Origin: a virus | DNA length: 32,599 bases | Reading direction: 5' to 3' (one strand) | Virus record (IMG/VR): IMGVR_UViG_3300000115_000101 | Span: 1 to 32,599 of that record | In this document: piece after piece, positions 4,133 to 27,423 of the stretch | Layout: the number at the start of each line of letters is the position of its first letter | How positions within the stretch are numbered: position 1 is the stretch's first letter | Position numbers and translations under genes: made by a program | Notes under the pieces: generated by a model | What the model was told of the DNA's origin: nothing | What the model saw: the letters and a program-made list of their open reading frames with translations, nothing else | Database searches by the model: none

Positions 4133-4142
4133 TTATAAATAT
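4133..4142 (-). promoter_or_regulatory. Late-gene motif ATATTTATAA, 50 bases before the 700-aa fibre gene
   Basis: An exact copy of the 10-base motif in the 97-base gap between the 336-residue and 700-residue genes. It is the most distant copy from its start codon (about 49 bases) and leaves room for a real 5' leader. Confidence 0.5.
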
Positions 4143-4180
4143 GCAACCTGTTTTGTTTATTAATATTTTTCTAATTTTTT

Positions 4181-5191
4181 TTAAGTACCTTCAAACCCAA
4201 AAAACACAGATTCAGTTGTAAAATACATATGCCCTGGTTCAGGAGTTGGTTCAAAACCATCAGGTTGAACTCTAAATATAGCTATACCTTCACTATCTAT
4301 TTTAAATAGACTTTGTGTTATCGCAGTTGTATTATTTATTAAGAAATTCTCATTAGTATCTAATGATACAATACTACTACCTGTTACACTTAAACTTCCT
4401 GTTATTTGAGCTGATCCTGTATAAGGAAAAACTGCAGATTCTGATATTAAGGTTGCGAATACTGAGGCTACTGCTGTTTGGTAACCTGCTAAACCTAATG
4501 CTTGAGTACTTGCATTTAAATCACCTCTACCAGCAATTGTTATTAAATTATTTTCAATTTGAGATACAAGTAAAGTACTAGCATTTGATGTAATTTGATG
4601 ACCTTCGTCTTCTATAAATGAAGGTAAATAATCGCTTGCAGTTGCAAAGAAATTGATATTTTGTGAAGAATTTCTACTTTGGATTTTAGTAATTTTATAC
4701 TGACCATATAAACCCTTAATTTCTGAAGATACACTACCTGTATAAGCTAGTTGGGCAGCTATACCCCATGCTGGTAAACTTTCATCATAATCTGCATCTT
4801 CTGAACCTGTAATTGCTCTTGCATCAGCAGGATAACCATCTCCAACTTTTGTAAAAGAAGCGGAAATGAATAAATATTGTCCCTTAGGGGGTCTAATTCT
4901 TCCTGTACCATTACCATTTCCAATCGCGTTTTGATCAACTGTTATGATATCTGCTGATATGTCTGTAATAATAGCATCACCCGTAAGTTTACCACCAGCC
5001 ACTATAACCATACCAACCATTAAGTCAGAGAATACTAGTGGGCCTTGTGAAATAACACAATTTTGTATTGTAGGTTGTCCTGAGGTAAAAGTACCAGTAA
5101 TTCTAATATCATTTATGTTGTTTTCAAATGAAATAAAATCATTAGAACCGTCATATCCTAGTGAGGCAAAATTTATTGTTGGTGTAGCCAT
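4181..5191 (-). CDS. Phage structural protein, probably fibre or baseplate decoration, 336 aa
   Basis: Not a family I can name. It begins MATPTINFASLGYDGSND. The N-terminal half has short beta-strand-like segments (RITGTFTSGQPTI, MVIVAGGKLTGDAIITDIS). The middle contains the segment GLYGQYKITKIQSR (about residues 160-173). The C-terminal third holds ITGSLSVTGSSIVSLDTNENFLI and ends with a compact aromatic-rich tail (MYFTTESVFFGFEGT). Such SLSVTGS phrases are usual in phage fibre proteins. It lies between a collagen-like fibre and another fibre and is probably part of the same host-contact assembly. No catalytic motif is visible. Confidence 0.65.
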   Translation of the reverse strand: MATPTINFASLGYDGSNDFISFENNINDIRITGTFTSGQPTIQNCVISQGPLVFSDLMVGMVIVAGGKLTGDAIITDISADIITVDQNAIGNGNGTGRIRPPKGQYLFISASFTKVGDGYPADARAITGSEDADYDESLPAWGIAAQLAYTGSVSSEIKGLYGQYKITKIQSRNSSQNINFFATASDYLPSFIEDEGHQITSNASTLLVSQIENNLITIAGRGDLNASTQALGLAGYQTAVASVFATLISESAVFPYTGSAQITGSLSVTGSSIVSLDTNENFLINNTTAITQSLFKIDSEGIAIFRVQPDGFEPTPEPGHMYFTTESVFFGFEGT

Positions 5192-5223
5192 TTATGCTTT
5201 ATTTTTTTTTATTTATTTAATTA

Positions 5224-7077
5224 TTAAAACCTCATTGTCATCATTACCTCACTAAAATTACCAACTCCTGATAATCCTATTTGGTTAAAGTTAGACCCTA
5301 AACTGTAAGAAGTACTAATACCAATATTACCTGAATTTCCTGTACCATCAAAGTTTTTACCTTCTACTGTAACTAAATTTATACTTTGTTTATCACTATA
5401 CCCACCTGCTCCTTCATTTAATCCCGCTGGGACTGTTACTGAATAATCAGTTTGTTGTTTATCTCCTGCACCCGATCCTCCAGACAATACTGTTAAATTA
5501 TTTAATTGAGATGAACCATTTAATCCTCCTGGTGCTACTATTGTTATAGCTGTAATATCATCTGCAGTTGCGGTAACATTTACGCTAAATAGGGTTCCAT
5601 AAACAGCCTCACTACCTGAAGTTCCACCTGTATCTGCACAAGTAAAGGTAAATGTGTTTGATGTTACTGCTGTAATATCGGCTATTTGATAATCTACATT
5701 AGCTGCTCTAAGTACTACTTTATCCCCAACACTTAATCCATGAGAATTAAAAGTAACAACCATACTAGTTGATGTTCTAACCCATGCTGCTGTAAATAAA
5801 TTTGTAGTGGAAGTCATATATACTTCATAATTGTTACCATCAGAATCAGCTAAGTATCTATATTGTGTGTTATATACATTTCCTGATCCACCACCTGAAC
5901 CTTCAGCACCTGTTATACCTTGTATACCTTGTGTACCCGTTATACCTTGAATACCTTGAGAACCTGCACCTATTATACCTTGTACACCTTGAGTACCCGT
6001 TATACCTTGAATACCTTGAGAACCTATACCTGTTATACCTTGTATACCTTGTATACCTTGATCACCAGTAATACCTTGGATTCCTTGAATACCTTGATCA
6101 CCAGTAATACCTTGGATTCCTTGAATACCTTGATCACCTGCACCTTCTATACCTTGTATACCTTGTATACCTTGTATACCTTGTGTACCAGTAATACCTT
6201 GAATACCTTGAGAACCTGCACCTGTTATACCTTGTATACCTTGTATACCTTGATCACCAGTAATACCTTGTATTCCTTGGATTCCTTGTGAACCTGCACC
6301 TGTTATACCTTGTATACCTTGAGTACCTTGTAAACCTGTTATACCTTGGATTCCTTGTGAACCTGCACCTGTTATACCTTGAATACCTTGAGAACCTTGA
6401 ATACCTGTAATACCTTGTATTCCTTGTGAACCTGCACCTTCTATACCTTGAATACCTTGTGTACCTATTATACCTTGTATACCAGTAATACCTTGTATTC
6501 CTTGAATACCTTGACCACCTGCACCTGCTATACCTTGTATACCTTGTATACCTTGAGCAGCTTGATATCCTTGAATACCTTGAATACCTTGTATTCCTTG
6601 TGAACCTGCACCTGTTATACCTTGAATACCTTGAATACCTTGACCACCAGCGCCTGTTATACCTTGTATACCTTGAGTACCTAATCCACCCGTTACACCT
6701 TGAGTACCTTGTATACCTTGTATACCTTGAGCAGCTGCATATCCCTGAATACCTTGTGAACCAATTATACCTTGTAGACCTTGAGAACCTTGTGATCCTC
6801 CTGCTGAGGCTCCTCTAAAAAGTTCTCCATCAGGTTTTATTAATACCATTGGGTAAGCTTGTTCTCCTGGTGTTGTTGCTTCGTTTGCGTATGTTCCCTT
6901 TAAAGTTACATCTCCTGTAGTTTCAAGAGACCCAGACAACTTTGCTGATCCTGAAAGGTTATATTTTGTAAATCTGGTATATGTGAAAGCATCAACAATT
7001 TGTTTTACTTGTGAAGCCTCTACTGTTTCTCCTGTTTGTATCCCATTAGGGTCTAATTCTGTTGGTTCAATTGCCAT
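5224..7077 (-). CDS. Collagen-like tail fibre protein, 617 aa
   Basis: Three parts are visible. Residues 1-93 form an N-terminal domain (EASQVKQIVDAFTYTRF, then SGSAKLSGSLETTGDVTLKG). Residues about 94-393 are almost unbroken Gly-X-Y triplets, dominated by G-I-Q, G-I-T and the spacer GITGAGSQGIQ. The C-terminal 220 residues form a non-repetitive domain that includes SHGLSVGDKVVLRAANVDY and NTFTFTCADTG, a beta-sandwich-like module common in phage structural proteins. The extreme C-terminus (FSEVMMTMRF) is probably the exposed tip or trimerisation end. It differs from the left-edge collagen gene in lacking the MAxWxxVIVSGS anchor, so it probably attaches elsewhere. A late-gene motif lies 21 bases upstream. 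Confidence 0.85.
   Translation of the reverse strand: MAIEPTELDPNGIQTGETVEASQVKQIVDAFTYTRFTKYNLSGSAKLSGSLETTGDVTLKGTYANEATTPGEQAYPMVLIKPDGELFRGASAGGSQGSQGLQGIIGSQGIQGYAAAQGIQGIQGTQGVTGGLGTQGIQGITGAGGQGIQGIQGITGAGSQGIQGIQGIQGYQAAQGIQGIQGIAGAGGQGIQGIQGITGIQGIIGTQGIQGIEGAGSQGIQGITGIQGSQGIQGITGAGSQGIQGITGLQGTQGIQGITGAGSQGIQGIQGITGDQGIQGIQGITGAGSQGIQGITGTQGIQGIQGIQGIEGAGDQGIQGIQGITGDQGIQGIQGITGDQGIQGIQGITGIGSQGIQGITGTQGVQGIIGAGSQGIQGITGTQGIQGITGAEGSGGGSGNVYNTQYRYLADSDGNNYEVYMTSTTNLFTAAWVRTSTSMVVTFNSHGLSVGDKVVLRAANVDYQIADITAVTSNTFTFTCADTGGTSGSEAVYGTLFSVNVTATADDITAITIVAPGGLNGSSQLNNLTVLSGGSGAGDKQQTDYSVTVPAGLNEGAGGYSDKQSINLVTVEGKNFDGTGNSGNIGISTSYSLGSNFNQIGLSGVGNFSEVMMTMRF
5899..6798 (-). repeat. Collagen-like Gly-X-Y coding repeat
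   Basis: About 300 residues of continuous Gly-X-Y coding, built from 9- and 18-base units such as sense CAAGGTATTCAAGGTATA. Glycine is written almost only as GGT, and many units are identical at the base level. The same unit sequences recur in the left-edge gene, giving the two genes extensive short homology. Confidence 0.9.
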
Positions 7078-7098
7078 GATGTATTGGTATTTATTTTA

Positions 7099-7108
7099 TT
7101 ATAAATAT
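7099..7108 (-). promoter_or_regulatory. Late-gene motif ATATTTATAA before the 617-aa collagen-like gene
   Basis: An exact copy in the 39-base gap between the 352-residue gene and the collagen-like fibre, 21 bases before the start codon. It continues TAAAATAAA in the sense direction, close to the sequence after the copy at 27414-27423. Confidence 0.55.
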
Positions 7109-7116
7109 ATAAAAGG

Positions 7117-8175
7117 TTATTGTCTATCAATGTTTACTAAAATTGTTGTATCAGTAGTTCTTGATGTAGGAAGAGGTTGTGCCATTTTCCCAATTGCTAC
7201 TAATTCATTATTATTATTATATAAGCCTACTGTTGTAACATATGGGGAAAAATATGATCCCGTGGCATATGCATAAACAGTACCGTCATTACTAGAACCT
7301 GATATAGTGGAAGGATTTAGTGTATAGTTAAATTCACTTTCTCCTATTGTACATTTATATTGCGTCTCATAAATAGTAAAAGAAGATGAAAATTCTAAAG
7401 TTATATTAAGAGTATCTATAAGATTTTCAACATCATTATTTCCTACTGTTCTTCCACCATATATACCGTTTCCATATTCCGCACTACCCCAATACCCTTC
7501 TTCTCCAATTCCTTCTTTTCTGCTTCCACCAGTAAAAACAATCATACCTTGTCCGTAAATAACATTACCTACTACGGTTATAGTATCGTTTATATTTGTT
7601 CTTATTAGTTTACCTTCACCATCATCATAATAACTTCCACTTGGAGTAGTAATATTAATAGAACTAGGTAAAATATAATCTCCAAACAAAGATTTAGGTA
7701 TTGATATTACTCCTATAGTAGGATCAATTTCTGAGGATTCACCATAAAGACCCTCTCCATATATAATACCTCCCCATAAAGGACCATCTAATATTTGAGT
7801 TATATAAGAACTAGTTGGCCAATATTTTTCTGGGTTTAGATCAGTTTGATCAAAATTTTCAAAGGCATTTGAATCTATTATACCATGAGTAGTACCATCT
7901 GGGTAAATTGATTGTGTATTAGCTATTTGTACCTCACCATTACTACTTGAGATATAATTTGAATAATATAATTGTTGAGCAGAATAATATACAGAAGACT
8001 GTGAATATTCTGTTATATACCCCGTAGCACTAGAAGTTTTGAATTTGTTCCCTAAAAAACGATCAATCCCTACATCAGAAGTAGTTAAAGCATCTCCAGT
8101 AAATGAAAATCCTTTAGTTAGTTCTAAAGGTGATATTATTATATCTTGTGAGTTTAATGTTTTGTACGCCCCCAT
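7117..8175 (-). CDS. Phage structural protein with a C-terminal SEFNY-type domain, 352 aa
   Basis: The N-terminal region (GAYKTLNSQDIIISPLELTK) is followed by a Tyr/Ser/Gly-rich body with several GxGIYGG and YGEGLYG turns. The last 85 residues hold TQYKCTIGESEFNYTLNPST near residue 280, then YVTTVGLYNNNNELVAIGK. This C-terminal segment is clearly homologous to the end of the adjacent 344-residue protein. The domain is a recurring element in structural proteins of marine T4-like phages. I infer a baseplate- or fibre-associated virion protein whose C-terminal domain acts as a common docking unit. The gene follows its neighbour by 6 bases with no separate motif, so the two are co-expressed. Confidence 0.7.
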   Translation of the reverse strand: MGAYKTLNSQDIIISPLELTKGFSFTGDALTTSDVGIDRFLGNKFKTSSATGYITEYSQSSVYYSAQQLYYSNYISSSNGEVQIANTQSIYPDGTTHGIIDSNAFENFDQTDLNPEKYWPTSSYITQILDGPLWGGIIYGEGLYGESSEIDPTIGVISIPKSLFGDYILPSSINITTPSGSYYDDGEGKLIRTNINDTITVVGNVIYGQGMIVFTGGSRKEGIGEEGYWGSAEYGNGIYGGRTVGNNDVENLIDTLNITLEFSSSFTIYETQYKCTIGESEFNYTLNPSTISGSSNDGTVYAYATGSYFSPYVTTVGLYNNNNELVAIGKMAQPLPTSRTTDTTILVNIDRQ

Positions 8176-8181
8176 TCATTC

Positions 8182-9216: not shown

Positions 9217-9226
9217 ATCTTTTTTA

Positions 9227-9892: not shown

Positions 9893-9911
9893 TTGTGTTT
9901 ATTATTATATG

Positions 9912-9921
9912 TTATAAATAT
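9912..9921 (-). promoter_or_regulatory. Late-gene motif ATATTTATAA before the 221-aa structural gene
   Basis: An exact copy in the 30-base gap between the 1555-residue and 221-residue genes, 19 bases before the start codon. It is followed in the sense direction by CATATAATAATAAACACAA, another A/T-rich stretch. Confidence 0.55.
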
Positions 9922-9922
9922 G

Positions 9923-14590: not shown

Positions 14591-14603
14591 TTATGTTATT
14601 TTG

Positions 14604-14613
14604 TTATAAATAT
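14604..14613 (-). promoter_or_regulatory. Late-gene motif ATATTTATAA before the 1555-aa gene
   Basis: An exact copy 13 bases before the start codon in the 56-base gap after the 1762-residue gene. The sense sequence continues CAAAATAACATAA, almost the same as the TAAAATAACATC that follows the copy at 27414-27423. Confidence 0.58.
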
Positions 14614-14646: not shown

Positions 14647-17600
14647 TTATGGATCTATAGGATCCTCTCCTTGTGTTGGTCCTCCAAAATAACCATATTG
14701 GGTATAAGCACAATAAGATTCATTTAGAGGATAATTGGTTTGATCAAAATTCTTTATAACAACTCTCCAATCTCTTTGAGTTAACTCTAAATTATCTGGA
14801 GCAGATGGACCAGGGGATGCATCACATCTAATATTAATAGTTCTATCTCCTGTATATACATTCCCGTTATTTGCTACAGTTGGATTAGGAGTAACTCCTC
14901 CACCAATTATACTAAGGAAACTTGGTGTGCCTGGATGTACTGACCAAGCACCACTTTCATCAGTCATAAAATACATTACATATTGAGTGTTAGGATTACC
15001 TCCTACACTTACTTGTGTGGTGGATGTTCTTTCAGCTGGAGTTCCAGAACTAGGAATAGTTCCAGACCCACAACTACTTATACTAACAATATCAGTAGTT
15101 CCTTGAATTTGTTGTAAATTAGGAGTTATTGTTATAGTTGAAGGTGGTGAGTATAAATTAAAAGCGGGTCCAATAGGGACTGATGATGCTGTTATATCGC
15201 CTTGATATAAAGCTAATTTTATTATTGATGGTGCCCCTCCTGTTAAAGTAGATGAAGCACTTAAAGCATGATATGTGTCATTTTTAGCATTCATAAACCA
15301 TGGTACTTCACTTGGGGTATTAGTAGCATCTCCATCAAACTCTCTTGAACCTGTGTTAAAATTTCCAAAGGTATCAGTATTAAAACTATCACCCGTTGAT
15401 ACTCTAACAAGACCACCATCATTTGTTGTTTGGAAATAATTAGCTTCATGCCATCCTTTAAAAAATGATTCTGTGGGGTATGTAGGTATTGGTGGAAAAT
15501 ACCCTTGTGCTAATGATTCTGTAAACCCTGTTGCAGGGATTACATTTGGATCTTCTCCTGAAGAGGTAGCATAGTAACTAAATACCCCACTTGCACTAAA
15601 GGTTAAATTATAAAATGAATCATCAAATGAGTTAACTGCATTAGATGAAGGTTCTTGGTTAATTATTAATAAAGTTGCATCTTCGGTACCAGGAAACCCA
15701 TCACTTTGGTTTGAAGTATTTGATATAAAATAAGATTGATATCCTTCAATTAAAATATTTAGATAGTCAGAGGCTCCTGTTAAATTAAATATTACATAAT
15801 CACTATCAGCAATAAAGGGTTGTATTGCTACACCATTAACATCAACATTAGACATTTTAATATATTTAACCTTATTAGTTACATTATAAGCAACATCCCG
15901 GGTTAATAAAGTTACAATTAAATCTTGTGTTGCGGTTGTATACCCTAAACTCTGTAATTCAGCTATAGATATTGTTATAGTATCCCCTACTTGATAACCA
16001 GAATTACTAGGAGAATTAATTACCTTAACATTTAACCATGATTGGGCAGCAGGTTGTGTTGTTGTGCTTATTCTTACTTCAGCACCTGTTCCACTACCAT
16101 CTGTTGTTATATTTGTAGTTGTTACATTAGTGTTAGATGGGTAAGGAGTGGTTTGAAAGTTTTGGGTTATATTAAGGGGGTAATTTTGTGTTAATATACC
16201 ATTTTGGTTAACTGTGTCTGCCCAAAACCATACATTTCCTTCTGTTGGGATAAAGTTAGGGAGTACAAAATCTGATTCATTTTTAGATATATTATTAAAC
16301 CATTGGATTCTAAAGAAATAATCTATAATAGCATCATGTCCAAAAAATGTTTTACAAATTTCATTAGCTCTTACTTGAATATCATTACCAAATTCTCCAT
16401 TGTAAAACTCTCTTTGGTCAATTCTAGGATAATTAACAGGAGGGAATTGATTTGATCCTGTTTGTTCTTGATGATATGGAGGTGTAATTCCTAAAGATGG
16501 AACTATTGACTCACTCCATTGTTGTACAAACTCTGGATATTGAGCATAAAATTCAGAGGCAGAAACTTCAGCTTCTGTTAAACCACTATAAGGTCCTCCA
16601 CCATTTTGAACAGATCTACTAACGGGGGCAGTAAAATTACTATTAAAGGGTTCAAATGCACCCCCAGTACCTCCACTAAATTTATATATAGCAGACCCAC
16701 TAACATTTCCATATGCAGGGAACGAACTACTGGAGTTAGGTACTTGGTAATTTCTTGGAAATGATTTAACACTACCTGAATATTCAGGAGTGGTAAATGA
16801 CATTGAAGGAGGTGCTTGTCTGTTTCTTTCTAATAAATTTTGTTTTATTACAACACCAGAAGATAAACTCGTTCTAGCAGGTGTAAAATCTTCTATCATT
16901 TTAAATAATGAATTATCGAAGAATGAAATTAACCTAATAAAATCATTTACATCATAACTATTTATATATTTTGTAAAATATGCATCTCTTAAAGCATCTA
17001 ATTGTGGATAAGAATACCCAGATTCAGATATTTGTCTAGGATCACCTATATAATCTCCTAAGTTAAACGCACCTATTTGTGCTATAATATCATCATTAAC
17101 CTGGTCTGTGGGTGAGAATGCTACTTCTAAATAATTAATACTAGGATTACTACCACTTGGGTAAATATCTTGTTGTATTGATCTATAAGGTGATAAAGTA
17201 GAACCAGAAGGTAATACTTCTTGAACTATTTTAATTTGATCACTTATCCTATTTTTAATACCTCCTGGTACTTGGTTTAGAAAAATGCTTTCTCTATTTT
17301 GTATAAATGAACCTGTTACATAAAATTCACTATCCCCGCTTGAAAAAGACTGTGTTGTTGCCCAAGATCCTGTAACTTTAGGGTGTATTGAAGTTCTACT
17401 TGATGTTATTAATTGTGTACCTAAATCTGCTCTAAAGGCTAAATCTTGAGGTGTTACATTAATTGTATTACCTTGAGTTGAATAAGGGTTAACTACATAA
17501 TCGTAAAATAAACTTTCACTTAATGCTGTATCCCAATATCTTATTTCTTGATACGCCCCAGAAAAAGGTGTTGCAGTTCCTCCATCTATAGGTACATTAT

Positions 17601-19935
17601 TTATATTTGGAAATCTTGAAGTTTGTACTGTATCCCAATATTGCCAGTTATGTGTTATATTATCTGAATCTGTGTGTCCTATTTTATCCCCAATTCTATT
17701 AGCAGCATATATATAAGCTTTATCATTTCCTGAGTAATCAACAGTAGCCATTACAGACCACCACCCACCATCAAAGAAGGGTAAATCAATACTTGCTGTT
17801 TTATCTAACCCATTATTTCCATCAGGATAAAATGTTAAAGTACCATAAGCATTAGATTCAGAAGGAGAAGACCCACTATAACTTGAAGTAGTCATTCCTG
17901 ATCCTGTATAGTTTAAAGTAATAAAGGAAGTATTACCATCACCAGTCCATAAGTTTTGGTGTATGGGTGTAGCTGTTTCTGGTATACCTGGGGTTTTAAA
18001 TCTAAATTGTAGAGATTTTGGTCTTGTTTCTTGAACATTATTAGCAAAATCATCACTTAATTGAAATGAAGAGGTTATTTGACTGTTTATACCATCAGAA
18101 TGAAAGGCATAATTAAATACATCTTTACTATAATCCCAATCTTGAAAATCGTTTCTATCTTTACCACCAAATTCGTTTATTCTTAAAATGGTACTTGGGA
18201 TTCCATAAGCAGTAATTAATGCTCTTATACCAGCTATTGTACCTTTTTTCTTAAGTAATAAGGGTATGTTATGGTAAATTCGTTTATATAATTGTTTATT
18301 AACATTGTCTAATGGGACTATATCGTTTGAAGCAGATATTTCAGTATCTACGTACTGAAACCCAGTAGGTGTATTAACTAGGGTATCGATTGACCCCGTC
18401 ATATCGGGAAAAGGAAATGTACTACCTGAGGGAGTTAATCCCAAAAATGCAGTATATAAATCATTAGAGTTAAAATTATTTGAATATAATTTAATACCAA
18501 AATCCCTAATAGCATCTGCTACTAAATCCTTAGAAATACCAAAGTCTAAACGGTTATCCGCGTCAAATCTAGTTGTTAAATTCTTAGTATATAACCATGT
18601 ATTATCATACTGTTGAGCCACCATATCAACGAATAATTCATATTTTTCGTTTTCTGAATCTTCTTTAAGATATTCTGGGATTGCATTATATAAATAATCT
18701 TGATTATTTTCATCATAATTAGAAGCAGATAAAGCTTGCCCCCCATAATAAGGACTTCCTTCATCTGTACTCCCTACCCAAGTTAATGCTTCGGTACTTC
18801 CAGTTGGAAATAAAATATAAGGAGGTTCTGTATTTTGTTTTGGGTATGATTTTTCTGAACCACTATTAAAATACATAAAATATTCCCAACCATCTAAGTT
18901 AGAAATTATTTTTTCAATACTATTACCAAGTTCAGCTTTACTAGAACTGTAAGTACCCGTATTTAAAGGTAAATTATTTATAGCATTACTTGAAGATTGG
19001 ATTAATCCTACTTTATAATAAAAATTATCTAACCTAGTATATGCGGATGAAAAATGTATAAAATTACTATATTCAGTGTAATCTACACTTATGTTAATAT
19101 CCTTTCTATTTAATAGATTTTTTATTTGGTTTTGGGAACTAGTTATATCTGAATTTATTAAAGTATTATAACTAAATTCTTGACTTGATTCTCCTGTTTC
19201 TTGTGTTACAGTAATACTATAATTTGGACCCTTTATTAATTGAATATCATTTGGTTCAAAAATTAAAGGTGGGAAAGTAACATTATATGCTTCAGGATAT
19301 GAAATTTCTTCAACTACCCATAATGTTGATTTTAAATCAAATTGAGAAGGTAAGGGCTCATATAGTTTAACTAATAATGAAGGTTCTACAGCAGTTGTAG
19401 TATCCAATCTTAAATTATTTGCTATTACCTGTTGATCATTTCCAAAATTAAGTAAAAAATCTACAAAATAATCTTGAGTTTCACGAAACCCAATAAATGC
19501 TTCACTTGAACTAATAATTAATTCACTAGGTATAGTATTACTATTTAACCTTAATTCAGTTCTATCTGAACTAATTTCACTGATATAATAATTAGTTTCT
19601 ATATCCGAAGCTATAAGCTTTCTATAAAAATTATAAGTAGCATAAAAAGTACCTTCATCATATCCTATTTCTGAAAGATCTTCATCTGGGTATAATATAG
19701 TATCTCCATTTATTACACTATAATTTGTTACAGGGATGGCTTTTGCTGATCCAACTAAGGGGAAAATAAGATTTTTACTTTCATCATAAGCATAGTATTC
19801 TATATAATCCGTGGATGAAGTAAAAGCAGTATCTAATCTTGAAGAAGATATTAAATTACTATCTTTTTCATCATACTGTTGAAATTCAAATGTTGAAGGT
19901 TCAACTTGTACTATTTTTATTTTATTTTCTTCCAT
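14647..19935 (-). CDS. gp7-like / tail-protein-I-like baseplate wedge protein with LamG-like insert, 1762 aa
   Basis: Residues 1-250 form an N-terminal region with YNFYRKLIAS and VKLYEPLPSQFDL. The diagnostic part is near residues 545-592: YKRIYHNIPLLLKKKGTIAG, then IRALITAYGIPSTILRINEFG. It matches the 'H-R-x-K-G-T ... A-I ... G' core of the P2 gpI tail-protein family, the counterpart of T4 gp7. Residues about 655-820 look like a LamG/concanavalin-type beta-sandwich (GGWWSVMATVDYSGNDKAYIY, later YQEIRYWDTALSESLFYDYV). Near residue 1315 lies a module shared with the 1555-residue protein (GYQVGDTITI). The C-terminal 150 residues are Ig-like and end in QGEDPIDP. T4 gp7 is about 1032 residues, so this is much longer. 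It follows the gp25 and gp6 genes, as a wedge protein should. The role is structural. Confidence 0.75.
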   Translation of the reverse strand: MEENKIKIVQVEPSTFEFQQYDEKDSNLISSSRLDTAFTSSTDYIEYYAYDESKNLIFPLVGSAKAIPVTNYSVINGDTILYPDEDLSEIGYDEGTFYATYNFYRKLIASDIETNYYISEISSDRTELRLNSNTIPSELIISSSEAFIGFRETQDYFVDFLLNFGNDQQVIANNLRLDTTTAVEPSLLVKLYEPLPSQFDLKSTLWVVEEISYPEAYNVTFPPLIFEPNDIQLIKGPNYSITVTQETGESSQEFSYNTLINSDITSSQNQIKNLLNRKDINISVDYTEYSNFIHFSSAYTRLDNFYYKVGLIQSSSNAINNLPLNTGTYSSSKAELGNSIEKIISNLDGWEYFMYFNSGSEKSYPKQNTEPPYILFPTGSTEALTWVGSTDEGSPYYGGQALSASNYDENNQDYLYNAIPEYLKEDSENEKYELFVDMVAQQYDNTWLYTKNLTTRFDADNRLDFGISKDLVADAIRDFGIKLYSNNFNSNDLYTAFLGLTPSGSTFPFPDMTGSIDTLVNTPTGFQYVDTEISASNDIVPLDNVNKQLYKRIYHNIPLLLKKKGTIAGIRALITAYGIPSTILRINEFGGKDRNDFQDWDYSKDVFNYAFHSDGINSQITSSFQLSDDFANNVQETRPKSLQFRFKTPGIPETATPIHQNLWTGDGNTSFITLNYTGSGMTTSSYSGSSPSESNAYGTLTFYPDGNNGLDKTASIDLPFFDGGWWSVMATVDYSGNDKAYIYAANRIGDKIGHTDSDNITHNWQYWDTVQTSRFPNINNVPIDGGTATPFSGAYQEIRYWDTALSESLFYDYVVNPYSTQGNTINVTPQDLAFRADLGTQLITSSRTSIHPKVTGSWATTQSFSSGDSEFYVTGSFIQNRESIFLNQVPGGIKNRISDQIKIVQEVLPSGSTLSPYRSIQQDIYPSGSNPSINYLEVAFSPTDQVNDDIIAQIGAFNLGDYIGDPRQISESGYSYPQLDALRDAYFTKYINSYDVNDFIRLISFFDNSLFKMIEDFTPARTSLSSGVVIKQNLLERNRQAPPSMSFTTPEYSGSVKSFPRNYQVPNSSSSFPAYGNVSGSAIYKFSGGTGGAFEPFNSNFTAPVSRSVQNGGGPYSGLTEAEVSASEFYAQYPEFVQQWSESIVPSLGITPPYHQEQTGSNQFPPVNYPRIDQREFYNGEFGNDIQVRANEICKTFFGHDAIIDYFFRIQWFNNISKNESDFVLPNFIPTEGNVWFWADTVNQNGILTQNYPLNITQNFQTTPYPSNTNVTTTNITTDGSGTGAEVRISTTTQPAAQSWLNVKVINSPSNSGYQVGDTITISIAELQSLGYTTATQDLIVTLLTRDVAYNVTNKVKYIKMSNVDVNGVAIQPFIADSDYVIFNLTGASDYLNILIEGYQSYFISNTSNQSDGFPGTEDATLLIINQEPSSNAVNSFDDSFYNLTFSASGVFSYYATSSGEDPNVIPATGFTESLAQGYFPPIPTYPTESFFKGWHEANYFQTTNDGGLVRVSTGDSFNTDTFGNFNTGSREFDGDATNTPSEVPWFMNAKNDTYHALSASSTLTGGAPSIIKLALYQGDITASSVPIGPAFNLYSPPSTITITPNLQQIQGTTDIVSISSCGSGTIPSSGTPAERTSTTQVSVGGNPNTQYVMYFMTDESGAWSVHPGTPSFLSIIGGGVTPNPTVANNGNVYTGDRTINIRCDASPGPSAPDNLELTQRDWRVVIKNFDQTNYPLNESYCAYTQYGYFGGPTQGEDPIDP

Positions 19936-19962
19936 ATTTAGAAAGTAGTGGTATTTGTAATA

Positions 19963-20430
19963 TTAAGGGTTTGTTGTTGATGGTATTGTACTAACAATAT
20001 CATTATATTCTTTATTCCCTGACAGATCTTCATTTTCTATGTTATCAGCATCTAAATCAATTTTTTCTCCTGTAAGTGCTTCAGCTGTTGCAATTTGAGA
20101 TTGTAATAAATCTCTTCTTAGTTGTGATATTTCCGCTCTTAATGCTACTATAATTTCATTATCTTGATCAAAGTTTATATAGTCACCACTGGTTTTGACT
20201 AAATATTCGTGTGAATTTGAACCTCCATAGGAAGGAATATCGTAAAATAGCTCATTATAATATTCAAAAAACTGTTGAACAGTAGTTGTTGCCTCTATTT
20301 GTTCATTTACAGAAATAACACCCAATTGTTGAAATTGAGTATCTATAATTTTAGTATAATCTGTTTTAGAATATACTTTTTTAATTAAATCTATTTTTTC
20401 TGTTTTTCTATCCATTTTACTTCTACCCAT
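19963..20430 (-). CDS. Small coiled-coil baseplate-region protein, 155 aa
   Basis: The ATG lies inside the end of the 389-residue gene (8-base overlap), so translation is probably coupled. After a basic N-terminus (GRSKMDRKTEKIDLIKKVYS), residues 25-85 contain TTVQQFFEYYNELFYDIPSYGG. Residues 96-130 form a likely coiled coil (IIVALRAEISQLRRDLLQSQI). The acidic C-terminus ends in STTNP. It is not recognised as a named family. T4 gp53 and gp8 are the small wedge proteins expected near here, but I see no motif that decides for either. It is best described as a wedge-associated helical protein. Confidence 0.65.
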   Translation of the reverse strand: MGRSKMDRKTEKIDLIKKVYSKTDYTKIIDTQFQQLGVISVNEQIEATTTVQQFFEYYNELFYDIPSYGGSNSHEYLVKTSGDYINFDQDNEIIVALRAEISQLRRDLLQSQIATAEALTGEKIDLDADNIENEDLSGNKEYNDIVSTIPSTTNP

Positions 20431-21592
20431 TAACTACTTTAAAGTAATAATTCTCATCCATCACTATGGTTTGACCCGCTATTTCAGTTTGAATCAATAT
20501 ACAATAATACCTTTCAGGTTCCAAACCATTCATATAAACAGTAAAGAAACTTCCAGTTGAATCACAACTAATATTTGTAAATTCTTTATCAAAATCTACA
20601 ACAAATTCATTAGTATCTAAATCCTTAATAGCATATAAAGATTGTGAAGGTAAAGCATAATTTGTTGTATAAACAGAAGCGGTTTGAAAACTACGAATTG
20701 GAAATTCGGGACGTACACTTAATCTAAAATTATTTATACTTTCACTGTAAAATACACCTTGGTTATTATCTAATGCTACAAATAAATCAGGAGTATTAAT
20801 AACATCTAAGGATCCTGTTTCATATACAGAATCATCCCACTTTATTTCTAATTGTGGTGGGTAGATTGTATTTGTGTCTACTGAATAATAACTTAATTGG
20901 GGAGATACTGCACTTGAAGTAATAAATTCTTTATCAGTTTCCCATTTTACTATAAATCCTTCGTTTGCTATTTCTATTTTACCTGCATTTAAACCCCTAG
21001 ATGATGAATACCATACTCTTAATGCATCTGTTACATTAACATTTAAGTCTTTGTCACTTCTTAAATTAAAGGATTGTGTAAACTCTAAAGGACCAATTCC
21101 TTCATATCCACCTGATCCTGTATACCATACTCCACCTCCTGCGTTATTACTTCCAGAAAATGAGGCTGTAATAAGTGGATTCCAACCTCCGGTTGACCAT
21201 TTATTTGAACCTGAATAATCAGAGTATACCCAACTTACACCTGTAGTATTAAAGGGTTTATCTAGATATTGACCTGATCCATTATTCCATGATCCTGATA
21301 TAGGGTAAACTTCTATGTTTGATTTTAAAATAACATTCGTTGCTTTTGATACATTCAATTTTAAACTCCCTGAAAAGTTATCCCAAGATCCTGTTACTTT
21401 TGCTATATTATCAATTACATCGTTTATCTGTGACTGATCAAATTTAACTAGAGATCTTGCTACTTGGGCTATAGGGTTTATGTCTGTTACTTTATTGTTT
21501 ACATCTAATATAGGATCCAACCCAGTATTCATTGCTGGGTACGCACTATATATTGAAGCGTCTTGGGAGGGAAATAATTTATATACTGCCAT
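20423..21592 (-). CDS. Baseplate-region structural protein with DNRLRE-like N-terminal domain, 389 aa
   Basis: Residues 1-60 (VYKLFPSQDASIYSAYPAMN, then RSLVKFDQSQI) and 190-235 (LNVNVTDALRVWYSSSRGLN, then GFIVKWET) have the layout of DNRLRE-type beta-sandwich domains, which often serve as structural or adhesion modules. Residues 265-389 form a second domain with YTTNYALPSQSLYAIKDLDT and GSFFTVYMNGLEPERYYCILI, ending in a strand (YYFKVVNG). This resembles the all-beta virion proteins of T4-like environmental phages. It lies 2 bases after gp6 and overlaps the 155-residue gene. T4 gp8 occupies a comparable position, but I cannot show homology. Confidence 0.65.
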   Translation of the reverse strand: MAVYKLFPSQDASIYSAYPAMNTGLDPILDVNNKVTDINPIAQVARSLVKFDQSQINDVIDNIAKVTGSWDNFSGSLKLNVSKATNVILKSNIEVYPISGSWNNGSGQYLDKPFNTTGVSWVYSDYSGSNKWSTGGWNPLITASFSGSNNAGGGVWYTGSGGYEGIGPLEFTQSFNLRSDKDLNVNVTDALRVWYSSSRGLNAGKIEIANEGFIVKWETDKEFITSSAVSPQLSYYSVDTNTIYPPQLEIKWDDSVYETGSLDVINTPDLFVALDNNQGVFYSESINNFRLSVRPEFPIRSFQTASVYTTNYALPSQSLYAIKDLDTNEFVVDFDKEFTNISCDSTGSFFTVYMNGLEPERYYCILIQTEIAGQTIVMDENYYFKVVNG

Positions 21593-21594
21593 AA

Positions 21595-23436
21595 TTATAA
21601 GTTTACTACTTTTCCTTTAATATCTCTATTTGGATATTTTAATTCAAAAATACTTGGATCTAAAGAAGGAAATATTGTTCCATTTTGGTTTGCACCATTC
21701 ATATCATAAGCCCATTGTGAATATCCACTATTTGTTCCTGCAATGTTACTTATTACTATAGACTTAACAGTTTGTACTCCTTCTAATGCATCTAACATTA
21801 CAAATAAATCGGGAGTAATTATAGGTTGATTAATTTGCCATTTATCAATATTAAAATAAGTTTGAAGTGAAACTATACACCTTTCAAGTACCTCATTACT
21901 GTTATAATTAGGATAAGTTACAATTTGGAAATTTATACCAAAATTAATAATAAAAGCATCTTTAATACTAATAGTATCACCAATCATTCTATACTCATTA
22001 AGATATGTTCTAACATTTTCTTTTAAAGTATCTGAGGGAGTGGTTAAATAATTGTTATTGTCTTCTGTTAGTACGTAAAGGTCTAATGTTGTATTAGCAT
22101 CATCGGCATTTGGTTTTTGTGTCCATGCTTTTGCAATTCTACCATATTTAGAAGGCATACTTAAAGCTCTTACTAAATAATCATTAGCTGTTACATTTCT
22201 TAATTGAGTAGAAAAATTTGATATACTATTTTGTCTTATTTCTTCTATTGTATCTCCATCTTGACCTCCTGAAGCTGCTTCGGGGTTGTTAGTTGCTATA
22301 GAGTTAAATATATATTGTGCTAGATTAGGATCTAATCCACCTTTTATAAATTTTATATTTGTAGTATTAACATTTGTAATAGTATTTGATAACACATTAG
22401 ATTTAACCCCACCACCAGTATAATATCTTACTGTTAGAGTAGTATTTGATGGAGAAATACCGTATGTGTTTGTAAAAACAAAATTTGTAGGACTATAAGC
22501 GGTTGTTAATTTATTTTGTTCAAAAGGTAAACCTAAACCTACATTCATTGAATTTGGAATAATTTCTTCTGTTGTACTATTTGGGTTACCAACTCCAAAT
22601 TGAAGTTGAAGTCTATTACTACTTAAAAATCTAGTTGCAAATCTAGTTTCTACTGATTTAGTTTGTAATAAATAAGGTGTATCTGTATCTAAATAAGTAT
22701 TTGGGTCATTTATATTTGTGTTTTTAATACCATCAAATATTAATTCTTGTCCTAAATAATCAACTTCATACCATTTATTTCCATCAGAATCTATTACATC
22801 AACTATACCTGCTATATTAGGTTCATTAATTTCAAGTGTAATGAAATCTTGTGGGGATCCTATGGAAAATTGAGTTTGATTAATTTTAGCTGAGAATACT
22901 TTTCTTGATTTTTTTAATAGGTAAAAAGTAGGATTACCTCCTGATATTTGACCAATTGAAACCGTAGTTGGGTCTAATGAACTGGAGGAAGTAAAATCAA
23001 TTGGATTATCTAATGTAAAAGTTACGGGTGTTGCTGAAGTTGTCGTTATTGATGTATTAGCATCTACATATAAGGCATAATCATAATCAGGAACAGATTC
23101 ATTATTAACTAGTTTAGCTGGAACTTGTTGGTATATATCTATGATAGTATTTGATAAACCTGTAACTCTAGGTTTATAACCATACATATAGGCCATATCA
23201 AATATATTACTCTGTTGTCTAGCATACTGTAAAAAGTTTTCTTGAATTTGATTATCTAAATAGAAAGATAACACATCCCCTACATACGCTGCTTGTTCTA
23301 TAAACATCATCCCCGGGGAGGTGTTTGAAAAATCTGTATAAGTCTTTGGGAAGTATGTTTGGCTATAATTAATTAGCTGGGATCTATACTCTGAAAAATC
23401 CTTATTTATATATTTTATGTCTTTTCTTACAGCCAT
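21595..23436 (-). CDS. 6: Baseplate wedge subunit gp6 / BaseplateJ-like, 613 aa
   Basis: The N-terminal 90 residues hold the typical opening of gp6-family proteins: NKDFSEYRSQLINYSQTYFP, SPGMMFIEQAAYVGDVLSFY (about 40-59) and IFDMAYMYGYKPR (about 78-90). Near residues 410-430 lies DYLVRALSMPSKYGRIAKAW, the conserved BaseplateJ stretch. The length is close to T4 gp6 (660 residues). In T4 this protein dimerises and forms the ring that holds the wedges together around the hub. The start codon overlaps the gp25 stop as TAATG, the order gp25-gp6 is the same as in T4, and coupled translation would keep their amounts linked. There is no sign of truncation. Confidence 0.93.
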   Translation of the reverse strand: MAVRKDIKYINKDFSEYRSQLINYSQTYFPKTYTDFSNTSPGMMFIEQAAYVGDVLSFYLDNQIQENFLQYARQQSNIFDMAYMYGYKPRVTGLSNTIIDIYQQVPAKLVNNESVPDYDYALYVDANTSITTTSATPVTFTLDNPIDFTSSSSLDPTTVSIGQISGGNPTFYLLKKSRKVFSAKINQTQFSIGSPQDFITLEINEPNIAGIVDVIDSDGNKWYEVDYLGQELIFDGIKNTNINDPNTYLDTDTPYLLQTKSVETRFATRFLSSNRLQLQFGVGNPNSTTEEIIPNSMNVGLGLPFEQNKLTTAYSPTNFVFTNTYGISPSNTTLTVRYYTGGGVKSNVLSNTITNVNTTNIKFIKGGLDPNLAQYIFNSIATNNPEAASGGQDGDTIEEIRQNSISNFSTQLRNVTANDYLVRALSMPSKYGRIAKAWTQKPNADDANTTLDLYVLTEDNNNYLTTPSDTLKENVRTYLNEYRMIGDTISIKDAFIINFGINFQIVTYPNYNSNEVLERCIVSLQTYFNIDKWQINQPIITPDLFVMLDALEGVQTVKSIVISNIAGTNSGYSQWAYDMNGANQNGTIFPSLDPSIFELKYPNRDIKGKVVNL

Positions 23437-23843
23437 TAGTTAAAATTTAAATTTAAAGTATCTTCAATAGCAGTATTTATAACATTATAGTATATTTGCA
23501 CTGTTACTTCATTATTGTCTGAGTTATTTAAAACATTTAATTCTTGAACATTTACAAGAGGAAATTCGGTCGCTATTTTTTGTTGTACATCTTCTCTTAA
23601 AAAATCTAAATTATCTGAATTTATTTGAGTAAATATAAATTTTCTTAAACCACCACCAAAAGTAGGATTACCTGGTCTTTCTCCTGGGTTTGTTAGGAAA
23701 TAATTAATTAAGTTATTTTTTATTGCCTGAGCAGTTTGATAATTAGGAGTGAACACACCACCTTCATTGAATGGGATGTTTACTCCAATACCAACTGAGG
23801 GTCTTAAATCATTAACAAATTGATTGGGTGCTCTAAATGCCAT
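23436..23843 (-). CDS. 25: Baseplate wedge subunit gp25-like, 135 aa
   Basis: This is a small protein of the GPW/gp25 family, the conserved wedge component of contractile tails that bridges hub, sheath and wedge. Residues 52-71 read NPGERPGNPTFGGGLRKFIF, the signature stretch (E-R followed by P-x-F-G-x-x-L). T4 gp25 is 132 residues, so the length fits. The C-terminal half is alternating strand and helix (VNVQELNVL, then EVTVQIYYNVI), as in the family. Older annotations call this family 'lysozyme-like', but its role is structural. The gene overlaps gp6 by one base as TAATG and begins one base after the 131-residue gene ends. Confidence 0.94.
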   Translation of the reverse strand: MAFRAPNQFVNDLRPSVGIGVNIPFNEGGVFTPNYQTAQAIKNNLINYFLTNPGERPGNPTFGGGLRKFIFTQINSDNLDFLREDVQQKIATEFPLVNVQELNVLNNSDNNEVTVQIYYNVINTAIEDTLNLNFN

Positions 23844-23844
23844 A

Positions 23845-24240
23845 TTATACTTTTCCTTTCATTATATTATTAATCATATCCATAGATACCTCACCTTGAG
23901 GTAATTGACCATTTGGGGATGTAGTATCCATACTACCCATTTGTAATGGCATACTATTAGTATTTGCACTTATAGTACCATTTACTCCAGGTCTCATACC
24001 ATCTAAAACACTCATCATGTTTTCTCTTAGTTTCAGTTTATCCGTTTCAGGGAGTGAAGTTTGCATTACTGGGTTCAGGGGACTAGGTGTTCCCGGATCT
24101 GTTGAAGGGGTTGCTGTTATTCTTTCGACAACGGTTTGTCTAGGAGCACGCACAGCTTCCATAAGGATGTCTTTCATCTCTTCTTGTATAGCCTCTTTCA
24201 CTGCTTCTTTTACGATTGTTTTTAATTGATTTAGTTTCAT
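23845..24240 (-). CDS. Small amphipathic-helix protein of the baseplate operon, 131 aa
   Basis: Not a named family. Residues 1-30 form one strongly charged amphipathic helix (MKLNQLKTIVKEAVKEAIQE, then a second acidic-basic turn). The remainder is Pro/Thr/Met/Asn-rich and probably disordered, with MMSVLDGMRPGVNGTI in the middle and a short C-terminal helix (SMDMINNIMKGKV). Layouts like this, a charged N-terminal helix followed by a flexible Met-rich tail, occur in virion-internal or assembly proteins. The placement immediately before gp25 suggests baseplate assembly. A late-gene motif lies only four bases upstream of the ATG, which is odd for a promoter. Confidence 0.62.
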   Translation of the reverse strand: MKLNQLKTIVKEAVKEAIQEEMKDILMEAVRAPRQTVVERITATPSTDPGTPSPLNPVMQTSLPETDKLKLRENMMSVLDGMRPGVNGTISANTNSMPLQMGSMDTTSPNGQLPQGEVSMDMINNIMKGKV

Positions 24241-24244
24241 ATGT

Positions 24245-24254
24245 TTATAAATAT
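24245..24254 (-). promoter_or_regulatory. Late-gene motif ATATTTATAA, 4 bases before the 131-aa gene
   Basis: An exact copy in an 18-base intergenic gap. The motif ends four bases before the ATG. If it were a -10 element, transcription would start at or inside the coding sequence, giving a leaderless or internal transcript. This copy is therefore the strongest test of whether the motif is a promoter. Confidence 0.45.
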
Positions 24255-24258
24255 TGAA

Positions 24259-25725: not shown

Positions 25726-25726
25726 A

Positions 25727-27055
25727 TTAGGTAGTTTTTACTTTTTTAGATTTATAATCACCTGATTGTGCTCGGTTAGATATATTATCTAATACACCCC
25801 CAGATTGACTAAGGATATTTGCTAAAGATGAAGCAATAGGAAGAGAACCTTCTTTACCTAAAGCACTACATAAAGTTTTTAAGTTATCTATTAATGCGGT
25901 GAAATCATCTAAAAATTTATCACCCAAAATTATGGATTCGGATGCATTTTGTTTACCTAAAGATACCACACCCTTATCAGATATAATATTTACATTTTTA
26001 GTTTGAGATTGTATACCTAAATCTTCAATTGATGTTAATACAATAGACTTTTGTGAAGAAAATAATATACTATCAATATGAGTATTAAATAATAATCTAC
26101 CTGAATTTAGTATTACTTGAGGGCCATTATAAGACTTAGGGGATTTTGGTACAGGGGAAATTATATTAGAATAAGGTATAGTTGAACCTTCACCTTCACG
26201 TTTTAAAGCAACCGCTATATCAAAAGGTATTTTTTGAGTAGAAGTTAAATATATAGACGTAGGGTCATTATTTATATCTTCTGTTATAGGTAAATAACCT
26301 TCTGATGAACCACTTATAGGTTGACCATTTTTTATAATAGTAATTGGGTCTCCGTTTTTAGTATTATTACCAGCAGACCAATTATTTGTAATAGTACCCC
26401 CAGCTTTAGAAGTATTACCCAATCTAATACTATTACCAAATCTACCTTCAAGTATATTATCTCCGGCAAAGGGTAAAATAGGGTGAATATCTCCTTTTTC
26501 TTCAAAAGTACCACCACTATTACCATTTAAATTTATACTTTGTTTTTGTGTGGTAGGTCTACTTACATTTCCTGTTTCTATTGAAGTATAAGATTTATTT
26601 AAAGAGGGAGCAACATTATTATCAGTATTTAAACTTGTAGGTACAGCATTCATATGTTGGCTGTTCCATAATGAAGTAATACTTACATAAAAATTCTTTA
26701 ATTTAACCCCTATATCTGGGTTTTGATTTGATGGTCCTCGTACAATAAGTACATATTCGTTAACTAAAGGATAAGTTTTTAAATTAGGAAATAAAGGGGT
26801 TGCTAATTGAATAGTAGTACCATCCAAACTTGTATTACCTGCAGTTTTAGCCTCAGTAAAGTTAATTGTCCCAATTCCTGACCACTTACCTGTTTGGTTG
26901 AATAAATCAGAATTAGAATTAAGATTAATATCTACAACTCTTGCAATTATAAATTTTCCAATTTGTGAAGCCTCACTATCAACATCACTTATACTTGAGT
27001 TAGTATTGGGTGATGATTGAAATAATCTAGAGATTCCAGTTTTATTTACTGCCAT
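25727..27055 (-). CDS. Baseplate hub/spike protein, gp5-like OB-fold, no lysozyme domain, 442 aa
   Basis: Residues 33-45 (GKFIIARVVDINL), 84-106 (ATPLFPNLKTYPLVNEYVL) and 120-135 (a segment ending SITSLWNSQ) follow the pattern of the OB-fold of gp5-family hub proteins. Residues 189-215 (DIHPILPFAGDNILEGRFGN) continue the conserved core. Residues about 300-375 (GPQVILNSGRLLFNTHIDSI, then KNVNIISDKGVVSLGKQ) look like short repeated strands of a spike beta-helix. T4 gp5 carries a lysozyme domain between the OB-fold and the beta-helix. Here I see no such domain or catalytic Glu-containing lysozyme motif, so peptidoglycan cleavage must come from elsewhere. The ATG lies inside the end of the 119-residue gene (14-base overlap). 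The assignment is by motif pattern. Confidence 0.78.
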   Translation of the reverse strand: MAVNKTGISRLFQSSPNTNSSISDVDSEASQIGKFIIARVVDINLNSNSDLFNQTGKWSGIGTINFTEAKTAGNTSLDGTTIQLATPLFPNLKTYPLVNEYVLIVRGPSNQNPDIGVKLKNFYVSITSLWNSQHMNAVPTSLNTDNNVAPSLNKSYTSIETGNVSRPTTQKQSINLNGNSGGTFEEKGDIHPILPFAGDNILEGRFGNSIRLGNTSKAGGTITNNWSAGNNTKNGDPITIIKNGQPISGSSEGYLPITEDINNDPTSIYLTSTQKIPFDIAVALKREGEGSTIPYSNIISPVPKSPKSYNGPQVILNSGRLLFNTHIDSILFSSQKSIVLTSIEDLGIQSQTKNVNIISDKGVVSLGKQNASESIILGDKFLDDFTALIDNLKTLCSALGKEGSLPIASSLANILSQSGGVLDNISNRAQSGDYKSKKVKTT

Positions 27056-27401
27056 CTTTTTTTTCTTCGTAATTCTTATTAAGGGTTTCTAACTCTTTCA
27101 TTAATTGATCTTTTTCTTCATCTGTAATTCCAGTAGGATCATCACTAATTGAATTGTTTAAAACACGTTGTATAATTGTGGACATTTTTATTAACTGTTC
27201 GTCATTTCGAACACCAATTTCCATATATTCTTTTATAAGAGGAACAATCAAAGTAGCATCACCAATATCGTTAATTAATGGTTTTAATTCTGATATTAAT
27301 CCTCCTATTTGTTGTTGTTTTGTTTTTTGGTTATCGTATATCTCACTTAATATATCTGAGAATTTTTTACTACCAAATACTACACTATCTAATGCGCCCA
27401 T
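27042..27401 (-). CDS. Small helical protein upstream of the hub gene, 119 aa
   Basis: A mostly helical protein: MGALDSVVFGSKKFSDILSE opens it, residues 25-70 are amphipathic (LISELKPLINDIGDATLIVP) and the C-terminus is charged (DEEKDQLMKELETLNKNYEE). It is not recognised as a named family. Its coding end overlaps the hub gene by 14 bases, an arrangement typical of translational coupling, so a hub-associated or assembly role is likely. It also heads the late block, with a late-gene motif 12 bases upstream. No membrane segment or catalytic motif is visible. Confidence 0.65.
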   Translation of the reverse strand: MGALDSVVFGSKKFSDILSEIYDNQKTKQQQIGGLISELKPLINDIGDATLIVPLIKEYMEIGVRNDEQLIKMSTIIQRVLNNSISDDPTGITDEEKDQLMKELETLNKNYEEKKDGSK

Positions 27402-27413
27402 GATGTTATTTTA

Positions 27414-27423
27414 TTATAAATAT
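27414..27423 (-). promoter_or_regulatory. Late-gene motif ATATTTATAA at the head of the baseplate block
   Basis: An exact copy 12 bases before the ATG of the 119-residue gene, in the 37-base gap after the gp55-like sigma gene. It marks the point where the regulatory genes give way to structural genes, so it is well placed to be the first late promoter. The sense sequence continues TAAAATAACATC. Confidence 0.58.

Follow-up and report, generated by a model that had tools for sequence, protein, structure and literature searches.

A candidate T4-type late promoter at the heads of gene runs in a phage genome, probably read by a gp55-like sigma factor

Introduction

The virus record IMGVR_UViG_3300000115_000101, of which positions 1 to 32,599 were analysed as a window of 32,599 nucleotides (nt), carries a 10-base motif, ATATTTATAA, which recurs shortly before the start codons of several genes. 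Read on the opposite strand this motif contains the late-promoter octamer of phage T4, TATAAATA, but the genes run the other way. An earlier note on this DNA had drawn attention to the resemblance, which is true by sequence, and had left three options: that a homologue of gp55 reads a late promoter peculiar to this lineage in the direction of the genes, that the element acts at the level of the mRNA, or that it drives antisense transcription. The locus raises the question of the direction in which the motif is read, and by which protein. The likely answer is a -10-only late promoter of the T4 type, with ATATTTATAA as its core, read in the direction of the genes by a gp55-like sigma factor candidate encoded in the same window. 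Neither ATATTTATAA nor the octamer within it, TATTTATA, was found to be described in open-licence PMC papers.

A repeated motif in the window

ATATTTATAA is present in six exact copies, all on the minus strand, which is the coding strand and carries the long open reading frames (ORFs) of the window, and it occurs nowhere else on either strand. All copies are intergenic and lie between the main minus-strand ORFs, at distances of 49, 21, 19, 13, 4 and 12 nt (in coordinate order) from the following ATG, so that the number, positions and placement reported in the earlier note, including the range of 4-49 bases, are all borne out. Dinucleotide shuffles of the whole window (n = 100) contain the motif 1.49 times on average and five times at most, and none of the 100 reaches six. 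Within the 15 upstream intergenic pieces (483 bases) the motif is found six times in sense and never in antisense, whereas 5000 shuffled sets average 0.10 copies, never hold more than two and never reach six; the motif is thus in excess over shuffled intergenic DNA, the comparison by which the earlier note had proposed to judge it. A chance origin of the copies was set aside, as neither kind of shuffle ever gives six. Copies with one mismatch show no excess (29 observed against 27.82 expected), and near-copies therefore require other evidence. The T4 octamer TATAAATA itself lies in sense upstream of one window gene, as opposed to six for TATTTATA, and a scan for the E. coli-type promoter consensus stayed below the shuffles in both halves (57 versus 75.6 and 88 versus 102.9).

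Direction and conservation among relatives

The gp6-like and sigma-like proteins served as queries to collect related loci, and the best 80 of each scan were taken; 154 loci were kept and grouped into 91 clusters, from which one locus that is mostly identical to the window (L087) was dropped to leave 90 representatives with 1.1 Mb and 1242 called genes. The same locus was dropped from the set of 204 sites used below for spacing, and retained in the counts of orthologous upstream regions, of sites at minus-strand genes and of the 142-residue gene. Since loci of one contig may overlap in the orthologue and site counts, these counts refer to distinct sequences. Among the representatives the 10-mer lies within 60 nt upstream of 193 of the 1242 genes in sense and of only 3 in antisense; 83 of the 90 have such a copy, as do all 52 of those of at least 10 kb. 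Minus-strand genes of the relatives carry the motif in their own sense (eight distinct sites), and the motif thus follows the genes and not the genome strand. Ten whole records display the same strand bias, for example 25:0 in a 166-kb contig, 19:1 in a 139-kb contig and 8:0 in the Flavobacterium phage immuto, the weakest cases being 12:2 and 10:2; gene direction was checked within the gathered loci.

The 60 nt upstream of each window gene were compared with the corresponding regions of its orthologues. The 10-mer is found in 70/70 of these for the 131-amino acid (aa) gene, in 72/80 for the 119-aa gene (the octamer in 73/80), in 11/13 for the 221-aa gene and in 8/17 for the 1555-aa gene, where the octamer is kept in 16/17; at the 119-aa gene the octamer is kept in 77 of 84 distinct sequences. 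The 10-mer is absent upstream of the orthologues of twelve genes, namely the 352-aa (0/9), 344-aa (0/12), 1762-aa (0/60), 155-aa (0/56), 389-aa (0/75), gp6 (0/73), gp25 (0/79), 488-aa (0/30), 442-aa (0/44), sigma-like (0/64), 91-aa (0/63) and 258-aa (0/72) genes. The antisense octamer appears in these orthologous regions in 0 to 8 sequences per gene, with a maximum of 8/72 at the 258-aa gene. No orthologous upstream region was recovered for the left-edge fibre gene or for the 700-, 336- and 617-aa genes, which leaves the sites at 4133, 7099 and 1547 without orthologue support. The base profile around the motif was conditioned on exact 10-mers and is silent on the variation tolerated inside the core.

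Two promoter classes in phage immuto

Immuto is an isolate that infects Flavobacterium sp. LMO8 and whose gp6 is 42.9% identical to that of the window over 100% of the query. Its genome was read in four stretches, and k-mers upstream of genes were counted with the motif not given beforehand. Two classes emerged, TATTTATA and GTTG-N-TATATTTAGGTATCAATAATTAAAAC. The octamer occupies 26 intergenic sense places, including those before the terminase, gp20-type, sheath and tape-measure genes, and the second element 16 intergenic places, of which 15 fall within a cluster of mostly small genes at 60-77 kb. The GTTG...TATATTTAGGTATCAATAATTAAAAC element and its leader are near-identical at 15 sites at record positions 60956-76216 (L161) and at one in L162 at 22094. 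A simple expectation-maximisation (EM) search ranks TATTTATA first in immuto; in T4, which served as control, TTATAAATA comes second, behind a start-codon motif. The sense and antisense counts are 11 and 5 for TATAAATA in T4 at 75-125 kb, as expected, and 13 and 3 for TATTTATA in immuto at 110-160 kb.

The TTG/TATATTTAG class may be called early in view of its gene content and host-type look, and it resembles the -33/-7 promoter TTTG/TAnnTTTG of Bacteroidota as described in excerpts of two papers (PMC6847099, PMC9723704). A TTG ends 22 nt upstream at 16/16 early-type sites compared with 2/26 octamer sites, and the base before the octamer is A or C in 26/26. The structural blocks of immuto (78-101 and 117-160 kb, drawn after the sites were seen) hold 17 of the 26 intergenic sense octamers and 0 of the 16 early-type TATTTAGG sites (Fisher p 1.4e-5). 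The element is thus real and directional, stands at the heads of gene runs, is conserved at orthologous genes and is distinct from the host-type promoters of the early-type cluster in immuto.

Relation to the T4 late promoter

In the excerpts of PMC2988020 the T4 late octamer is described as spanning positions -13 to -6 without a -35 element. Placed in the same register, TATTTATA and TATAAATA are identical at six of eight positions and differ only at -10 and -9, where AA is replaced by TT. TATNNATA is palindromic apart from its two central bases, TAT and ATA being mutual reverse complements; the exchange of the central AA for TT in the T4 octamer therefore yields its reverse complement, and no swap of strands is needed. 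According to the part of PMC7892883 consulted, the pockets of T4 gp55 take A-12, which stacks on Y97, A-9, which touches N13 and H95, and A-8, which bonds T99. The adenines of the deep pockets at -12 and -8 are kept in TATTTATA and that of the shallow pocket at -9 is replaced.

The motif is best taken as a variant of the T4 late-promoter kind rather than a new kind. In common with the T4 system (gp55/gp33/gp45) it has a -10-only octamer before presumed late gene runs, A/T-rich sequence downstream, no upstream element and a small, divergent protein of the sigma-2 type. It differs from T4 in the central TT, in a sigma protein which is only remotely similar (237 versus 185 aa), in that no sliding clamp was detected and in short spacings which suggest leaderless mRNAs. 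Other T4-related phages also have altered octamers, at least as far as the cited excerpts describe them: the late promoter NATAAATA of the cyanophages S-PM2 and Syn9 is likewise a variant of the T4 octamer found with a gp55 (PMC2984593) and keeps the central AAA, which the window motif does not, and the late promoter of Aeromonas phage Aeh1 has drifted to (a/g)C at -13/-12 (PMC2988020), whereas the change in the window motif is at -10/-9.

A gp55-like sigma factor candidate

The gp55-like protein that is the probable reader of the motif has 237 aa and is encoded at 27439..28152 on the minus strand, directly upstream, in the gene direction, of the first motif (the 119-aa-gene site); its homologue in immuto (immuto26A_153) is annotated as hypothetical. 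It can be regarded as a sigma factor, probably one of the gp55 kind. An AlphaFold2 model made with 51 sequences has a pLDDT of 77, and its neighbours in VIA-align, where helical models reach such Z scores by chance more easily, are nearly all sigma factors, with T4 gp55 (7d7c_F) in second place (Z 10.0, 115 residues, rmsd 3.4). Comparison with seven gp55s by hhalign renders residues 19-129 collinear with gp55 (E 6e-5, probability 65). In six-frame searches of whole records the sigma-like orthologue is the only match to phrog_234, the gp55 family, in 4/4 related records and the only match to Sigma70_r2 in 2/4, and of the 51 single proteins 39 match phrog_234 at E ≤ 1, the best value being 7e-4. 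An alignment at about 14% identity (A3) pairs F86 and Y97 of T4 with F87 and Y98 of the candidate, while N13, H95 and T99 are not kept and become T17, Y96 and G100. The residue at H95 is F in the cyanophage gp55s aligned, and because cyanophages also lack this histidine the comparison of pocket residues is a lead only. The lack of the motif before all 64 distinct orthologues of the sigma-like gene itself is as expected of an upstream regulator.

The sigma-like protein is 45.4% identical in immuto, 43.5% in LR756508 and 39.1% in Mel-JY01 (L167, PP395634.1). The last of these phages has homologues of gp6 and of the sigma-like protein, an immuto-like gene neighbourhood and A-rich sequences upstream of its genes, and its recorded host is the cyanobacterium Microcystis, an entry that deserves a check. 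Within the gp55-like proteins the segment SYF(G/Q)TI(V/A)KR of the lineages with TATTTATA corresponds to SYFS(K/I)IAKN in Mel-JY01 and LR756508, with T and R in the former and I or K, and N, in the latter; the motif-less side of this comparison consists of two lineages only.

Spacing and predicted leaderless mRNAs

At 204 distinct sites with an ATG within 40 nt, most octamers (151) lie 11-21 nt from it; of the others, 38 lie at 3-5 nt, 7 at 22-26 nt, 5 at 8-10 nt, 2 at 0-2 nt and just 1 at 6-7 nt. The short-gap class is separate, consistent with transcription that begins at the ATG or no more than about 2 nt away, and the copy only 4 bases before a start codon, which the earlier note had held against a simple -10 element, loses its force as an argument. 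Both spacings can occur at one gene. Of 77 distinct sequences at the 131-aa gene, whose protein shows conservation starting with the first codons in the sequences displayed, 34 have a gap of 4-5 nt and 43 one of 14-20 nt. At the 142-residue gene the octamer TATTTATN precedes an in-frame ATG in 36 of 67 distinct orthologous sequences and is missing from 31; among the 36, there are 17 gaps of 3-5 nt and 15 of 11-15 nt, while three sequences have no gap and one has a gap of 22 nt. The gaps at 25 of the 26 immuto sites are 1, 4, 4, 4 and then 10 to 68 nt (the site at 102153, with 133 nt, was left out), and one of the 4-nt cases (74567) lies inside a longer annotated gene.

The fourth nucleotide after the octamer is A at 87% of short-gap sites, where it is the A of the ATG in 10 of 38, and at 96% of long-gap sites; over 158 sites with a gap of at least 11 nt the frequencies of A at nucleotides 4, 5 and 6 are 0.96, 0.92 and 0.72. 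This composition suggests a transcript start at about the fourth to sixth nucleotide after the octamer, the sixth being the position that T4 numbering would give; the spacing classes, too, agree with the start roughly one helical turn downstream that marks T4-type late promoters. A start at the fourth nucleotide would leave the short-gap mRNAs with a leader of 0-2 nt, and the copies with short spacing, including the one 4 nt before its ATG, are best read as a separate class of promoters predicted to give leaderless mRNAs. In Flavobacterium psychrophilum 5.5% of the mRNAs examined are leaderless, according to the excerpted report (PMC9723704).

Weighing the explanations

The proposed promoter would have no -33/-35 element and would be made up of a single octamer resembling a -10 box, TATTTATA as read on the non-template strand, which is preceded by A or C and followed by A-rich sequence. 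The host RNA polymerase together with the phage gp55-like sigma factor would melt this octamer, transcription would begin approximately 4-6 nt downstream, and most late mRNAs would have leaders of about 6-18 nt while some would be leaderless. Several results weigh against this proposal. EM motif discovery in the window alone (13 pieces) gave no clean winner, 19 of 216 10-mers in the relatives fall inside called genes, and 9 of the 26 intergenic octamers of immuto lie outside its structural blocks. When the TTG spacing is widened to 21-23 nt, 6/26 octamer sites of immuto comply. Terminators just upstream (5/26 versus 7/56 controls) are not clearly enriched, and as independent evidence for unit boundaries they were rejected as not discriminating. 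The AlphaFold2 model has a pTM of 0.46, the Z score of 10.0 for gp55 is tied with those of other sigma factors (8x6g 10.1, 6ca0 9.6), and the modelled fold points to sigma domain 2 more than to gp55 in particular. A Foldseek search with the model gave no match at E 0.001 or better, sequence searches of the PDB with the candidate gave no matches, and its profile gave no useful alignment with T4 gp55 alone. The phrog_234 matches in the relatives are weak (12.7-15 bits, compared with 232.8 for T4) and arise in 7 of 14 control genomes as well, and phrog_11747, a family of unknown function, matches better (47/51 members, best 1.2e-6). Sliding clamps were detected neither with PF09116 (0/4 records, in a search whose control matched 1/14, below the cut-off) nor with PF00712 (0/6 records, control 11/14), a result that may reflect a lack of sensitivity. 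Finally, 50 kb each of Mel-JY01 and LR756508 display no enrichment of TATTTATA; over the complete records the extended octamer is no less rare, or no less symmetric, than expected by chance (4 and 5, and 1 and 0), and a de novo motif search in the same 50 kb found no clear late promoter.

The sigma-like proteins of these two phages, present where the motif is missing, leave some room for recognition of the promoter by a different polymerase or factor of the phage. This is unlikely, as the gp55-like protein is the sole phrog_234 and the sole Sigma70_r2 match in the records named above, and the single-subunit RNA polymerase family PF00940 was found in 0/4 records, albeit in a search without a positive control. 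The host primary sigma factor might alternatively read the motif alone, as a relaxed form of TTG/TAnnTTTG, given that ATATTTA is common to the octamer and to the early-type promoters of immuto (TATATTTAGG) and that the 7099 site and the variant at 29973 fit TTG...TATATATTTA. Unlike the Bacteroidota primary sigma promoter, however, the late motif has neither a fixed TTG nor TA at -12/-11, and it does not end in G; of the two bases before the immuto octamer, which would be T and A in the -7 box, the first is T at 23% of sites and the second A at 58% (and always A or C), and only 2/26 octamers have a TTG at the early spacing. In F. johnsoniae T-12, A-11, T-8, T-7, T-6 and G-5 are nearly invariant in the excerpts of PMC6847099, and the octamer has no such G. 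The window has no intergenic TTG/TAnnTTTG, and a looser TTTR form fits just the two sites mentioned. Host sigma alone is a very improbable reader.

A signal in the mRNA, for translation start, processing or stability, would explain why the motif lies near start codons, most often (151 of 204 distinct sites) at a distance of 11-21 nt, and translation in F. johnsoniae is described in the same excerpts as dispensing with a Shine-Dalgarno sequence and using an A at -3 and similar start contexts (PMC6847099). It is disfavoured by a gap that ranges from 0 to 26 nt and varies even at one orthologous gene (4-5 or 14-20 nt) while the octamer is kept, and by the absence of the motif before genes inside runs (0 in 9 genes), which need translation just as much; a role of this kind has little probability. 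The exact T4 octamer in the reverse complement is what speaks for a T4-like TATAAATA promoter firing on the opposite strand, whose antisense RNA would run into the preceding gene at its end. The 193 sense against 3 antisense copies, the turning of the motif with minus-strand genes, its confinement to the heads of gene runs and the A-rich extension on the gene side make this scarcely credible. The option of the earlier note that is favoured is hence the late promoter read in the gene direction, with a probable link to its gp55 homologue.

Sites and transcription units in the window

In the gene direction, the first predicted late promoter (27414..27423, minus strand, as are all features that follow) lies 12 nt before the 119-aa gene, and its counterpart in immuto, at 78885, precedes the gene adjoining the sigma-like gene of that phage. 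It would head a unit at 25727..27401 with the 119- and 442-aa genes, followed by the 488-aa gene at 24259-25725. The site at 24245..24254, whose octamer is 5 nt from the ATG of the 131-aa gene and whose mRNA is predicted to be leaderless, would head a unit at 14647..24240 comprising the 131-aa, gp25, gp6, 389-aa, 155-aa and 1762-aa genes. Further putative late promoters are located at 14604..14613, 13 nt before the 1555-aa gene, which forms a run by itself, and at 9912..9921, 19 nt before the 221-aa gene of the 221-344-352 run, with an immuto counterpart at 90661 before a gene with a similar beginning. For the remaining two the evidence comes from the shuffles: the candidate at 7099..7108, which also fits the E. 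coli-type pattern (11/12 match) and precedes the 617-aa collagen-like tail-fibre gene of the 617-336 run by 21 nt, and the one at 4133..4142, 49 nt before the 700-aa gene and what follows it. The description of the six downstream genes as structural in the earlier note holds in part: the 617-aa protein matches tail-fibre families, the only family match of the six, and gp25 and gp6 belong to the run headed by the 131-aa gene, but the 700-, 221-, 1555-, 131- and 119-aa proteins have no PHROG match, and the label of the other four genes is one of context.

The near-copies proposed earlier gain nothing from the one-mismatch class and have their support from relatives. The probable variant TATTTATC at 1547..1556, before the left-edge collagen-like fibre gene, is not significant alone, and its variant letter recurs in one relative (L054) at the orthologous 221-aa-gene site. 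The probable variant TATTTATG at 29973..29982 lies 3 nt before the likely true start of the 142-residue gene, whose orthologues have TATTTATA or TATTTATG at the same place. This gene probably starts at its third codon, where many orthologues begin with MID or MIN; the start was accordingly moved from 29976 to 29970, giving a 140-aa gene at 29548..29970 which has no PHROG match.

Genes for fibres with collagen-like repeats are found at 1-1530, with the variant motif upstream, and at 5224-7077, with the exact motif upstream. A protein with a T5orf172/MUG113-type domain, which we take to be GIY-YIG-like, is encoded in the non-structural part at 30503-30976; in immuto, a protein of the T5orf172 type is encoded a few genes ahead of the sigma-like gene.

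Implications

Taken at its strongest, the system would be a re-specified T4-type late sigma whose octamer is the reverse complement of that of T4, operating with no recognisable clamp and with a fixed subset of late mRNAs being leaderless. This is put forward tentatively and is rather doubtful as a whole; if true, late transcription would not have to be tied to replication in the manner of T4, and a leaderless subset would exist in hosts with few such mRNAs. Immuto is annotated with a family A DNA polymerase and a DnaB helicase, so replication coupling may differ from T4.

The motif offers a predicted code for the late promoters of a T4-related phage group that is known mostly from metagenomes and has a single isolated relative, on Flavobacterium; for the window phage itself, the host is judged from its relatives. 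It points to a candidate reader protein that is now annotated as hypothetical, and it would allow transcription units in such contigs to be drawn from sequence alone. The two-base change is a natural one with which to ask how the pockets of gp55 choose bases at -10 and -9, and leaderless late mRNA becomes directly testable in a Bacteroidota host.

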